Source: an uncultured beta proteobacterium (lineage in GTDB: Bacteria; Pseudomonadota; Gammaproteobacteria; Burkholderiales; Burkholderiaceae_C). Taken from it: a stretch of 53,572 bases of DNA. Below are positions 32,096 through 39,247 of the stretch, one piece after another. The notes beneath the pieces are model-generated. The model was not told the origin of the DNA, did not search any database, and saw nothing but the letters and a program-made list of their open reading frames with translations. A program made the translations under genes and the position numbers. Positions within the stretch are counted from its first letter, which is position 1, and each line of letters begins with the position of its first letter. The DNA is taken from positions 1-53,572 of the forward strand of contig CAIVLG010000210.1 in NCBI GenBank assembly GCA_903906695.1, written 5' to 3'.

Positions 32096-34120
32096 ATGAA
32101 CGGTTTTCCCGATCCCGCGATATGGGTCCATCTCGACTGGATCCTGCTGGTTGTCGCCGCTTGGCTGCTGATCGGTGTATTGGGTGTGTTCGCGCTCAGG
32201 CGTTTCAGGTTTGTGGCGATCGTGCTGTTTCCGATAAGCGGGGTATTTTCCCTCGTGATGCTTGGATTGGCCCTGAGCGCCGTGGGTCAAGGGCCCGAGG
32301 TCGCGTTGCTACCGATTGGTTTGCCGCAGCTTCCCTTTCATTTGCGACTGGACAGCCTCTCAGGTTTCTTTCTGATCGTGATTGGTGGCGTGTCGGCCGG
32401 CGTGTCGGCCTTTGCCGCCGGTTATTTTCGCAAGGGTGAAGGAACGCCGCCCGGTTTGATCTGCCTGGAATATCACGTTTTTCTGGCCAGCATGGCGATG
32501 GTGCTGTTGGCCGACGATGCCTATGCCTTCATGGTGGTTTGGGAAACCATGGCCTTGGCGTCATTTTTCCTGGTCATATCGAATCACCGTATTCCCGAAA
32601 TTCGCAATGCCGGTTTTATTTATATCCTGGTGGCGCACGTTGGCGCCTTGGGTATTTTGCTGTGTTTCGGAGTATTGCAGGCGAACACCGGCGACTACAC
32701 ATTTGCCAATATGCGGGCACAGCAACTCTCACCGTTTTGGGCTTCCCTTGCGTTCTTGTTGGCGGTGTTTGGCTTTGGTGCCAAGGCCGGTATCTTGCCG
32801 GTTCACGTCTGGTTGCCTGAAGCTCATCCGGCTGCGTCTTCGCCGGTGTCGGCCTTGATGAGTGGCGTGATGTTGAAGATCGCGCTGTATGGTCTGTTAA
32901 GAGTTTCGTTTGACTTGTTGCAGACCCGCATCTGGTGGTGGGGTGCGCTGTTGATGGCCGTTGGCCTGGTGACGGCCCTGTTTGGCGTTGTTTTTTCCAC
33001 AGTGCAAGTTGAGATGAAGCGGCTACTGGCCTATTCTTCGATCGAGAACATCGGCTTGATGTGTGCCGGCATTGGTTTGTCGCTGTTGTTCTCTGCCTAT
33101 GGCATGCAATCACTGTCGGCCCTGGCCATGACCGCCGCCCTGTATCAAGTCATCAGTCATGCGTTCTTCAAGAGCTTGTTGTTTTGTAGCACGGGTGCCG
33201 TGATGCACGCTACCGGCGAGCGAAGCCTGGGCAAGCTGGGCGGTTTGATGCGCTACGTACCGTGGGTTGCCTGGCCGACCCTGATCGGTGTTTTGGCCTG
33301 TGCTGGATTGCCGCCCCTGGGCGGCTTTGTGGCCGAGTGGCTGTTGTTGCAAAGTTTTCTCTTTACGACCGGGCTGCCAAGTTCATTTCTGAATATGTTG
33401 GTGCCTGTGTTGGCCGGATTGATTGCGCTGATCGCGGCGCTGTCTGGCTATACCATGGTGAAGTACTTCGGTGTGATTTTTCTCGGTCAGCCGCGTGAGG
33501 AAAAACTGTCGCAGGCGCACGATGCCGATCCTTGGGAGCGCATTGGCATGTTGTGGCTAACGGCCGGCTGTTTGGCGTTGGGTCTGCTGCCCAATCAGGT
33601 GATCGGCTTGATTGATCCGGTTACGCGCTTGCTGGTATCGACTGGCTTGGCGCAGGCGATGGCAGGCAGTGCTTGGCTGCTGGTTCCGGTCAGCATTGAG
33701 CGCGCCAGCTATGCACCGGCAATATTTCTGCTCGGTGTGCTGGCCTGCTTTGCGTTGGCGTACTTATTGGTGCGCAAGACCTACCACCGTGGCACGCGTC
33801 GCGTGCCGCCATGGGATTGCGGCTACCCTTGGCAGAATCCCCGCATGCAGGACAGCGCAGAAGGTTTTGGCCAACCGATCCGGCAGATTTTCGAGCCCAT
33901 GTTTCGTATGACCAGGGAGTTGCCGACACCGTTTGATGAGCGGCCACGCTATCGAGTTTTGGTGGAAGACCCGCTCTGGTACTGGTTGTATTTGCCGGTG
34001 GCGAGGGCGGTTGAACGCATTTCAAGGCTGATCGGTCTGCTGCAGCAGGGGCGCATTGCAGTCTACCTGATGTACAGCTTCGTGACCCTGATCGTGGTGC
34101 TGCTGGTGGTGAAGCAATGA
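32096..34120 (+). CDS. hyfB: HyfB-like antiporter-type membrane subunit of an Ehr/Hyd-4-like complex
   Basis: This 674-residue integral membrane protein is homologous to NuoL/NuoN and HyfB. It keeps the proton-channel residues of antiporter-like subunits: Glu150 (VVWETMA) in the fifth helix region, Lys230 (GFGAKAGILP) and Lys261. The segment PVHVWLPEAHPAASSPVSAL is the family signature. It has about 14-16 helices, with a cytoplasmic stretch near residues 560-600 (RRVPPWDCGYPWQNPRMQDS) typical of HyfB. It is the first gene of the operon. Its stop overlaps hyfC as ATGA. It should translocate protons or sodium when driven by the peripheral module. Confidence 0.92.
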   Translation: MNGFPDPAIWVHLDWILLVVAAWLLIGVLGVFALRRFRFVAIVLFPISGVFSLVMLGLALSAVGQGPEVALLPIGLPQLPFHLRLDSLSGFFLIVIGGVSAGVSAFAAGYFRKGEGTPPGLICLEYHVFLASMAMVLLADDAYAFMVVWETMALASFFLVISNHRIPEIRNAGFIYILVAHVGALGILLCFGVLQANTGDYTFANMRAQQLSPFWASLAFLLAVFGFGAKAGILPVHVWLPEAHPAASSPVSALMSGVMLKIALYGLLRVSFDLLQTRIWWWGALLMAVGLVTALFGVVFSTVQVEMKRLLAYSSIENIGLMCAGIGLSLLFSAYGMQSLSALAMTAALYQVISHAFFKSLLFCSTGAVMHATGERSLGKLGGLMRYVPWVAWPTLIGVLACAGLPPLGGFVAEWLLLQSFLFTTGLPSSFLNMLVPVLAGLIALIAALSGYTMVKYFGVIFLGQPREEKLSQAHDADPWERIGMLWLTAGCLALGLLPNQVIGLIDPVTRLLVSTGLAQAMAGSAWLLVPVSIERASYAPAIFLLGVLACFALAYLLVRKTYHRGTRRVPPWDCGYPWQNPRMQDSAEGFGQPIRQIFEPMFRMTRELPTPFDERPRYRVLVEDPLWYWLYLPVARAVERISRLIGLLQQGRIAVYLMYSFVTLIVVLLVVKQ

Positions 34121-35067
34121 GCTGGCTGGGGTTGTTATCGCAACTGATGGCGATCGTGGTGGCGCTGGTGCTGGCGCCGCTGATGTCCGGCTGGGTCAAC
34201 CAGTGGCGTGCCCGGCTGCAAAACAAGTCGGCACCCGGCCTGTTGCAGCCCTACCGTCTGCTGCGCAAATTGTTCAACAAGGAATCGGTGTTGGCAGAGC
34301 ATGCCTCACCGCTGTTTCGGGCGGCACCCTACATTGTCTTTGGCTGCATGCTGCTGGCCAGCGCCATCATTCCAACCTTGTCAACCGACCTGCCGCTGTC
34401 GCCGGCAGCGGACGCGATTGCATTGGTCGGCTTGTTTGCCCTGGCCCGCGTGTTTATTTCTCTGGCGGCGATGGATGTAGGAACGGCCTTTGGCTCGCTT
34501 GGTGCGCGCCGTGAAATGCTGGTTGGGTTTCTGGCCGAACCGGCTTTGCTGATGGTGCTTTTTTGTGCCTCGATGGTGTCGCGCTCAACCTCTTTGACGA
34601 CCATCGTCGACACCTTGGCGCACCGCGAGTTTGCGATCTACCCCAGCTTTCTGCTGACAGGCGTTGCTTTCACCATGGTGTCGCTGGCCGAGAACGCCCG
34701 GGTGCCGGTGGATAACCCGGAAACCCATCTGGAACTGACGATGATTCACGAGGCGATGATTCTTGAATACTCGGGGCGTCACCTGGCGTTGCTTGAATGG
34801 GCCGCGAGCCTGAAGTTGTTTGCCTATTCCTGCGTTGGACTGGCATTGTTCTTTCCCTGGGGTGTGGCGCAGGCCCAGTCGCCCTTGGCCTTGTTGCTCG
34901 CGTTGCCGGCTCTGATGATCAAGCTGGCCGTGGGCGGCATGGTCATGGCCTGCATCGAAACCGCCAGTGCCAAGATGCGAATCTTTCGTGTGCCGGAATT
35001 TCTGGGTACCGCTTTTTTGATGGCGGTGATCGGACTGCTGGTCAACATCTTGTTGGGCGTGTCATGA
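34117..35067 (+). CDS. hyfC: HyfC-like (NuoH-type) membrane-anchor subunit
   Basis: This 316-residue protein of about eight helices is homologous to NuoH/HycD/HyfC, the subunit linking the peripheral arm to the pump. VPVDNPETHLELTMIHEAMILEYSG, with its acidic Asp/Glu run near residue 195, is the hallmark and lies at the junction that passes conformational energy to the antiporter subunits. AHREF and RVPEFLGTAF are also conserved. Start and stop overlap with its neighbours as ATGA. The acidic E-channel residues are retained, so the coupling path looks intact. Confidence 0.93.
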   Translation: MSWLGLLSQLMAIVVALVLAPLMSGWVNQWRARLQNKSAPGLLQPYRLLRKLFNKESVLAEHASPLFRAAPYIVFGCMLLASAIIPTLSTDLPLSPAADAIALVGLFALARVFISLAAMDVGTAFGSLGARREMLVGFLAEPALLMVLFCASMVSRSTSLTTIVDTLAHREFAIYPSFLLTGVAFTMVSLAENARVPVDNPETHLELTMIHEAMILEYSGRHLALLEWAASLKLFAYSCVGLALFFPWGVAQAQSPLALLLALPALMIKLAVGGMVMACIETASAKMRIFRVPEFLGTAFLMAVIGLLVNILLGVS

Positions 35068-38735: not shown

Positions 38736-39247
38736 TCTGGAGGATCGCCAAGCGGATTGCCAGCAATGGCATCCGGACCGAGCCGGCACCCGATATTGGC
38801 GCCACTGCCGAGCTTGAGAGCGCGCGCATACGGAAAGACTTGCTCGACATTCTGGGCCGCTCGCTGATGATTCGCCAGGTCGATGCCGGCTCCTGCAACG
38901 GATGCGAACTCGAAATCAATGCGCTGGGCAACCCCTACTACAACATCGAGGGCCTGGGCATCAAGTTTGTGGCCAGCCCGCGCCACGCCGATCTGCTGCT
39001 GGTGACCGGACCGGTGGCGCGCAACATGGAGACCGCCCTCAAGCGCACCTTTGACGCCACACCGGAACCGAAACTGGTGGTAGCGGTCGGTGACTGCGGC
39101 TGCGATGGCGGCATTTTTGGAGAAAGTTACGCCAGCTGCGGACGCGTCGGCAACGTGATCCCGGTCGATGTTGTGGTGCCGGGTTGTCCGCCACCGCCGC
39201 TGGAAATATTGCGTGGCATTCTGACGGCGGTGCGGCGTCGCGCCTGA
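38732..39247 (+). CDS. hyfI: HyfI/NuoB-like small subunit with one [4Fe-4S] cluster
   Basis: This 171-residue protein is homologous to NuoB and the small subunit of group 4 hydrogenases. Four cysteines that can bind a proximal [4Fe-4S] (N2-like) cluster are all present: Cys55 and Cys58 (CNGCE), Cys122 (GDCGC) and Cys152 (PGCPPPPLEIL). Two extra cysteines (124, 136) are also seen. ATG 38732 overlaps hyfG as ATGA. Electrons from this cluster would go to a non-nickel acceptor or quinone near the HyfC/HyfG interface. Normally HyfH (two [4Fe-4S]) would precede it in the operon, but no such gene is here. It converges on metG (12 bp between stops). Confidence 0.92.
   Translation: MIWRIAKRIASNGIRTEPAPDIGATAELESARIRKDLLDILGRSLMIRQVDAGSCNGCELEINALGNPYYNIEGLGIKFVASPRHADLLLVTGPVARNMETALKRTFDATPEPKLVVAVGDCGCDGGIFGESYASCGRVGNVIPVDVVVPGCPPPPLEILRGILTAVRRRA

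Follow-up and report, generated by a model that had tools for sequence, protein, structure and literature searches.

What does a hydrogenase-4-like membrane complex do once its large subunit has lost the ligands of the [NiFe] site? The question is raised by hyfBCEFGI, a six-gene operon at positions 32096–39247 of contig CAIVLG010000210.1 from an uncultured beta proteobacterium; the whole stretch of 53,572 nucleotides that was analyzed is referred to as the window. On the evidence of homology and alignment, the encoded complex is a non-hydrogenase of the complex I superfamily and belongs to the energy-converting-hydrogenase-related (Ehr) complexes, a widespread and known group whose defining paper reportedly dates from 2013. 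We further propose, with the balance of probability about even, that it is a nickel-free complex translocating protons or cations, driven by an event in a rebuilt pocket of its large subunit HyfG. The features of the operon are as follows:

32096..34120, plus strand: hyfB, antiporter-like (NuoL-type) subunit, 674 amino acids (NCBIfam PRK06521, 1.8e-274)
34117..35067, plus strand: hyfC, NuoH/HycD-type membrane anchor, 316 amino acids (Pfam NADHdh, 2.6e-36)
35064..35723, plus strand: hyfE, hydrogenase-4 membrane subunit E, 219 amino acids (NCBIfam PRK11492, 8.3e-27; 94.5 bits, below the model cut-off of 136)
35726..37180, plus strand: hyfF, second antiporter-like subunit, GTG start (NCBIfam PRK06458.1-5, 1.7e-266)
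37185..38735, plus strand: hyfG, fused NuoC/NuoD-type large subunit, 516 amino acids, without nickel ligands
37833..37844, plus strand: codons of HyfG S217-G218-D219-S220, the former first C-x-x-C motif by alignment, with D219 invariant
38712..38723, plus strand: codons of HyfG S510-Y511-S512-G513, the former second C-x-x-C motif by alignment
38732..39247, plus strand: hyfI, NuoB-type small subunit, 171 amino acids, with one 4Fe-4S site and no ferredoxin domain (Pfam Oxidored_q6, 1.7e-30)

The operon is intact, and the gene calls agree with the preliminary description of this DNA, which had reported six genes with three ATGA overlaps (at 34117, 35064 and 38732). HyfG finds its top matches among NuoD-type models, and its match to Pfam NiFeSe_Hases (21.3 bits) lies below the cut-off of 25.8. 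Compared with four relatives, the six genes display dN/dS values of 0.06–0.22, which indicates that purifying selection acts on hyfBCEFGI. These values, together with the same loss in relatives, rule out a pseudogene or a sequencing error, the latter a concern of the preliminary description, as the source of the missing cysteines.

In HyfG, residues S217, S220, Y224, S510 and G513 align to C241, C244, H248, C531 and C534 of E. coli HycE, exactly the replacement of four ligand cysteines and the Tyr224 described before, and the protein lacks the four nickel-ligand cysteines that characterize group 4 [NiFe] hydrogenases. Among 110 HyfG rows of the clade that includes the window (clade A), there are 101 in which none of the four positions is a cysteine and nine in which one is; serine is found at 217 in 95 rows, at 220 in 94 and at 510 in 98, and glycine at 513 in 107. 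For the alignments and residue counts of HyfG, HyfI and the membrane subunits, the duplicates L001–L022 were excluded, and L023 and L066, which are one contig, are counted twice. Position 219, inside the former first motif, is aspartate in each of the 108 clade-A rows that cover it and in 12 of 12 rows of the related clade B, and valine, isoleucine or leucine in the five hydrogenase-type rows compared. D479 is likewise common to clades A and B and missing from these five rows and from two NuoD rows. At the position of HycE D529, asparagine (N508) is found in 108 of the 109 clade-A rows that cover it, whereas clade B keeps the aspartate. The hyfG gene ends at the C-terminus of mature HycE, for which we take the cleavage site to lie after Arg537. 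The residues of the HycE proton path, with roles as published (PMC9474812), are kept in the alignment as E170 (HycE E193), H260, R371, E413 and R454. Taken by alignment, the pocket at the former active site is rebuilt around an invariant Asp219, with the proton path retained.

A quinone cavity at this place, which the preliminary description had advised looking for, is not indicated: the positions of the complex I quinone residues Nqo4 H38 and Y87 are occupied by I169 and G218 in the alignment. The absence of these residues speaks against the main rival explanation, a direct ferredoxin/quinone pump. According to this classical redox scheme, ferredoxin docks on HyfI and electrons pass via one cluster to quinone or, in reverse, the proton motive force drives electrons of quinol onto ferredoxin, which would supply nitrogenase or biosynthesis. 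We consider such a pump unlikely, yet a serious contender.

The loss of the nickel site appears to be old. In a careful tree of 40 HyfG rows with long branches, L096, a locus with all four cysteines and the terminal sequence CYSCTDR, falls outside a single clade of ligand-less sequences (support 95/91). This clade consists of a fluoride-linked clade F (100/98) and a group (99/95) of clades A and B and Allomeiothermus silvanus, the latter joined to clade B with a support of only 83/84. An earlier tree made by a quick method differs, placing L054, now in clade F, outside L096. A single old loss of the nickel site is the simplest reading, at the moderate support (95/91) of one tree with long branches. 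In the trees HyfG lies outside the true hydrogenases compared, among which a placement would have contradicted the preliminary description. L096 itself (521–4428) is the end of an operon next to a clade-A operon; its large subunit has no C-terminal extension. It shares with the window E170 and the C-terminal signature NKSF...Y typical of the ligand-less clade, and differs in that none of the four nickel-ligand cysteines is lost and that its HyfI has a ferredoxin motif for one cluster.

The small subunit HyfI retains its cluster cysteines C55, C58, C122 and C152, as the preliminary description had it; across all clades, true hydrogenases included, they are present in 124, 124, 123 and 121 of 124 rows, respectively. 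This conservation is in favor of the redox pump. The upstream supply of electrons is a different matter. Among 107 HyfI rows scoring at least 145 bits, a C-x-x-C-x-x-C motif upstream is found in L096 only, and in none of the 106 clade-A-type rows, whereas clade B (judged by eye) and L096 display an N-terminal ferredoxin domain on HyfI. No homologue of HyfA, HyfH or NuoI could be assigned to the clade-A operon at 107 loci (flanks of up to 10 kb, many shorter); matches near these loci lie in adjacent clade-B or L096-type operons. Since neither a ferredoxin domain nor a gene for an input subunit was found, the window operon encodes one 4Fe-4S site only. The ferredoxin input module, as far as can be judged from these comparisons, is lost in clade A, which again weighs against the redox pump.

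Clade-B, ferredoxin-bearing operons and clade-A operons are found near each other in one locus in L033, L034, L037, L081 and L150. A relative of the same genus (L057:3-1124, G010:C220) carries a divergent NuoD-like protein (CRICVPEPDFNE, SLHTYPPEIER) adjoining a NuoI-like match.

A cluster without a wired input might also serve as an active site in its own right. Pyrococcus MBS lost two of four ligands and uses the proximal cluster as active site (PMC7684303), and a reductase of sulfane sulfur or another small molecule at the proximal cluster may be imagined here by analogy. We regard this as highly improbable: HyfI keeps the hydrogenase-type spacing C55-x-x-C58, in contrast to MBS, whose proximal cluster is held by three cysteines in a loop that is three residues shorter; E170 is retained, for which MBS has no counterpart; and no electron input subunit was found.

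The channel residues of the membrane arm are almost fully conserved across the relatives compared. HyfB E150, K230, K308, H355, K359 and E414 are conserved at 99–100% (73 relatives); the E-channel acids of HyfC (D99, D120, E133, E141, E192, D199, E206, E212 and E217) and R111 at 100% (72 relatives); and HyfF D66, E136, K160, K225, K304, H340, K344 and E399 at 100% (76 relatives). HyfF residues are numbered here from 35723, so that E136 and K225 correspond to the E135 and K224 of the earlier numbering. The antiporter residues previously proposed in HyfB (E150, K230) and HyfF are thus among the conserved ones, whereas K261 of HyfB, also proposed, is present in the window, though not among the residues conserved at 95% or more. 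Homology and alignments together support the Ehr assignment, the loss of the [NiFe] site and the retained coupling residues. A clade-A-like operon with hyfI in first place is carried by an actinobacterial plasmid of Rhodococcus sp. WAY2 (L155).

Two relatives have lost the proximal cluster as well. In A. silvanus (L158), HyfG is 37–38% identical, and T, D, E and S stand in place of the four proximal-cluster cysteines of HyfI; of 40 conserved residues tested in HyfB, HyfC, HyfE and HyfF, 34 are unchanged (27 of 28 on a shorter residue list). The cluster-less hyfI gene (L158:11263-12135, plasmid pMESIL01) belongs to a six-gene operon that is complete in all other respects. Mycobacterium branderi (L160, clade F) has N, D, D and A at the positions of the four HyfI cluster cysteines; its hyf-like operon is located on a plasmid behind a fluoride riboswitch (L160:3215-10654). 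In the tree, these two species with complete loss are on separate branches. HyfI of L054 retains three of the four cysteines.

The riboswitch is not confined to Mycobacterium. RF01734 was found by Rfam upstream in 6 of 6 clade-F loci, which had been gathered by protein similarity and not by RNA: before the operon in L159, L160, L161, L162 and L054, with a NUDIX gene in between in L160, and before a lone large-subunit gene in L163. As three of the loci are close Burkholderiaceae, the six represent about four separate lineages. Genes nearby encode, in several cases, DUF190, CrcB, inorganic diphosphatase, enolase or a MutS-like protein. The lone HyfG homologue (L163:7602-9098) is located on a plasmid of Alicyclobacillus sp., with no membrane subunit recognized among its annotated or scanned neighbors. 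Clade F resembles the window in its homologous subunits, the missing ligands and the common ancestor; it differs in riboswitch control, in the ferredoxin domain that its HyfI carries in the rows displayed, and in lacking Asp219, and its gene order, where the operon is complete, is C-E-F-G-I-B. Fluoride riboswitches upstream of formate-hydrogenlyase-like genes have been reported before, and we do not claim the link in clade F as new.

Such findings could suggest that the whole ligand-less clade consists of non-redox ion transporters which handle no electrons and serve pH or ion homeostasis, driven by the proton motive force or a ligand, with fluoride as the trigger in one branch. In favor of this explanation are the riboswitch in every clade-F locus, the ligand-less ancestor shared by F and A+B (95/91) and the loss of the proximal cluster on different branches. 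On the other hand, no Rfam match was found in the window and RF01734 in none of eight loci holding clade-B operons, and an aptamer model built from 20 of 21 aptamers, one left out, gave no credible fluoride aptamer in the other clade-A/B loci searched (all except L024, L049, L050, L079, L080, L101 and L112). Control of clade A by fluoride was not found in these searches, the best weak match (L082, E 0.055) falling inside hyfB. Among genomes of the order, the aptamer is present in 10 of 41 carriers of the complex versus 13 of 109 non-carriers (p 0.08), and the genome of the window has no match. The fluoride link therefore speaks for the relatives and not for the window. As, in addition, the cluster is kept in clade A and M. 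branderi retains a ferredoxin domain, we find an entirely non-redox transporter improbable.

The proposal of a nickel-free translocating complex may be spelled out as follows. HyfG and HyfI would sit on HyfC, and HyfB, HyfE and HyfF would form proton or cation channels. The trigger in the HyfG pocket might be protonation, binding of a ligand, or the gain or loss of one electron by the cluster through a diffusible carrier. In clade A, the single HyfI cluster may tune this event, either by exchanging electrons with a diffusible carrier or as a redox switch, and the event would drive or gate charge movement along HyfC into HyfF and HyfB. The complex would be neither a hydrogenase nor a wired electron chain. 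In favor of the proposal are the missing ligands throughout the clade, the invariant D219 and near-constant N508, the retained proton path, a HyfI with its cluster cysteines but no ferredoxin motif, purifying selection, channel residues conserved at nearly 100%, and A. silvanus, in which the cluster is gone and most of the membrane-arm residues tested are unchanged. Of the redox-driven ion pump in the preliminary description, the intact pump residues and the missing metal site hold. The term "redox-driven" has become uncertain, since clade A has no ferredoxin domain, no substitute gene was found in the flanks, and two relatives lack the proximal cluster.

More tentatively, and as a possibility that we rate as rather unlikely, the ligand-less clade as a whole may be leaving electron transfer behind. 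It would then represent a proton or cation machine gated by protonation or by binding of a ligand, for example an anion, at the former active site. The redox chain would have been dismantled piecewise by lineage: the nickel site in all, the ferredoxin input in the clade of the window, and the proximal cluster in Allomeiothermus and a mycobacterial member, with one sister clade under fluoride control. Several observations weigh against the main proposal of a translocating complex driven from the rebuilt pocket. The near-invariant cluster cysteines in clade A argue that electron transfer still matters there, and both cluster-less relatives lie outside clade A in the tree. A. silvanus HyfI retains a C-x-x-C-x-x-C remnant, not recognized by Pfam, and HyfI of M. 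branderi a one-cluster ferredoxin domain. Moreover, A. silvanus differs at D141, H237, R309 and K456 of HyfB and at E217 and K269 of HyfC; M. branderi differs at several positions of HyfB, HyfC and HyfG, some of them typical of clade F; and Rhodococcus keeps the cluster, but its HyfF lacks E136, K225, K304 and E399 in a pairwise alignment. Given the differences in M. branderi and the losses in Rhodococcus, the membrane arm is not uniformly kept.

The distribution of the complex provides a further angle on the redox pump. Rhodoferax is among the named relatives of the genus of the window. Of the 36 genomes of this genus, 21 hold full-length close homologues, which also occur in several other families. 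Of 150 Burkholderiales genomes sampled, 43 matched; after removal of G039 and G158, which have hydrogenase-type matches only, 41 carriers remain. A scan of genome contigs gave at least 533 related stretches; 80 were kept, which belong for the most part to Beta- and Gammaproteobacteria and otherwise to Nitrospirae, Acidobacteria, a single deltaproteobacterial metagenome-assembled genome and Rhodopseudomonas; the 85 matching plasmid records, enterobacterial hydrogenases included, are most commonly from Rhizobium (31).

Within the genus, nifH or RuBisCO is present in 20 of 21 carriers versus 3 of 15 non-carriers (p 4e-6), and at a completeness of at least 90% in 16/16 versus 1/5; moving G030, a non-carrier in this count that holds a short clade-A-like fragment, to the carriers gives 21/22 versus 2/14. 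A control family, 2-oxoacid oxidoreductase, is found in 18 of 21 versus 10 of 15 (p 0.24). Across the order sample, the numbers are 28/41 versus 27/109, or 19/29 versus 16/65 when collapsed to genera. RuBisCO-like proteins (nine genomes) were counted apart, and kinship enters the co-occurrence p values only by this collapse to genera. This co-occurrence with nitrogenase and RuBisCO speaks for the ferredoxin/quinone pump. However, Rnf (23/41 versus 25/109) and hypD (28/41 versus 21/109, with G127, below cut-off, left out) co-vary with the complex in the order sample too, and both nifH and RuBisCO are missing in 13 of the 41 carriers, so the link may reflect only lifestyle and not a partnership. 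Rnf as a complement of the complex was rejected, as its co-variation is positive and there is no mutual exclusion. As to Hyp maturation, on which group 4 [NiFe] hydrogenases depend, 13 of the 41 carriers have no hypD over the cut-off; the genome of the window has one.

Genes recurring next to the operon (107 loci, mostly named by eye) are metG-like (22), scpA-like (17), nadB-like (14), spermidine-synthase-like (11) and YoaK/DUF1275-like (8). They look like housekeeping genes, and a conserved neighbor as partner was rejected. YoaK also flanks the operon in plasmids of Paraburkholderia, Burkholderia and Rhizobium (Pfam). In the rhizobial plasmids L147, L152, L154 and L156, a small gene for a helix-turn-helix regulator lies directly 5′ of hyfB (HTH_3 in the three scanned), and in L147, L154 and L156 DUF4365 follows hyfI. 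Upstream of hyfB, in 72 stretches, no FNR site was found within one mismatch, and 10 at two mismatches versus about 4.6 expected from plain shuffles. For sigma-54, 2 of 72 at one mismatch versus 0.4 expected, and 10 at two versus 5.9, amount to a slight excess.

Formate dehydrogenase is a further candidate partner, in a formate-hydrogenlyase-like or FDH-Ehr complex. In the literature, such partners are discussed for Ehr complexes of other groups and proposed for the clusters of Acidithiobacillus, Sideroxydans and others, and on formate Geobacter sulfurreducens has higher levels of its Ehr subunits. Fdh-alpha was found in 35 of 41 carriers versus 74 of 109 non-carriers (hand count; p 0.04). Against this, Fdh-alpha was not matched, at the limit applied, in six of the 41 carriers, and an FdhF homologue is missing from the fetched stretch at 106 of 107 clade-A loci. 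At the remaining locus (L107), an FdhF/HyfA-like pair lies 5–6 kb away (the FdhF-like gene at 5.9 kb) on the opposite strand. HyfA/HyfH-type ferredoxins together with a formate dehydrogenase at the operon, as in formate hydrogenlyase, were not found within the fetched flanks, and a [NiFe] site is missing, all of which makes this partnership very unlikely.

Coupling is a central question of the complex I superfamily touched by this locus. Relatives without redox centers would let one ask whether complex I-type pumps run without the usual electron transfer. Specific questions arise from the comparison: whether the single cluster is needed, whether Asp219 matters, whether ions are moved, and whether clade F is part of a defense against fluoride or pH.

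Compared with E. coli hydrogenase-3 and hydrogenase-4 (HycE, HyfG), the window lacks the nickel ligands and genes for HyfA, HyfD, HyfH and HyfJ, and its HyfG ends at the mature position. Compared with complex I (NuoCD/NuoB/NuoH), it has the hydrogenase-type cluster spacing and E170, and lacks the quinone residues. Ehr complexes, by contrast, are defined in published accounts by a large subunit without the C-x-x-C nickel-ligand motifs. HyfG of the window lacks them, and the operon combines homologues of the group 4 large and small subunits with NuoH-like and antiporter-like membrane subunits. The same six genes are described for Cupriavidus metallidurans CH34 (Rmet_4666-4671), C. necator (H16_A2196-A2201), Acidithiobacillus ferrooxidans and Nitrospira; the last three were compared with the window by description only. 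A protein of the CH34 megaplasmid, likewise without the cysteines, matches HyfG of the window at 64.7% and probably belongs to the published Rmet cluster, its record being unannotated. The novelty implied by the preliminary description for a betaproteobacterial case does not hold, as hyfBCEFGI is already in print for CH34 and H16. The authors saw in the Cupriavidus genes an incomplete hydrogenase-4 and thought a role in lithotrophic growth very unlikely, a further point against the redox pump. The Acidithiobacillus cluster is described as a non-hydrogenase that went undetected when H2 was the growth substrate, that of Nitrospira as missing the C-x-x-C motifs and of unknown or alternative function, and the function of Ehr complexes in general as unknown (literature drawn on for these and the other comparisons: PMC2621215, PMC5178258, PMC6349859, PMC10284858, PMC5596200, PMC12542776, PMC10432482, PMC8407350, PMC7735108, PMC7305129, PMC7894505, PMC2864759, PMC12903955). 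The passages available from these accounts make no mention of a loss of ferredoxin input, an invariant aspartate, cluster-less relatives or a fluoride-linked sister clade. What the present comparison appears to add to the known group is an old loss of the ligands, a pocket rebuilt around Asp219, a missing ferredoxin input, a sister clade behind fluoride riboswitches, and relatives that have given up the proximal cluster.

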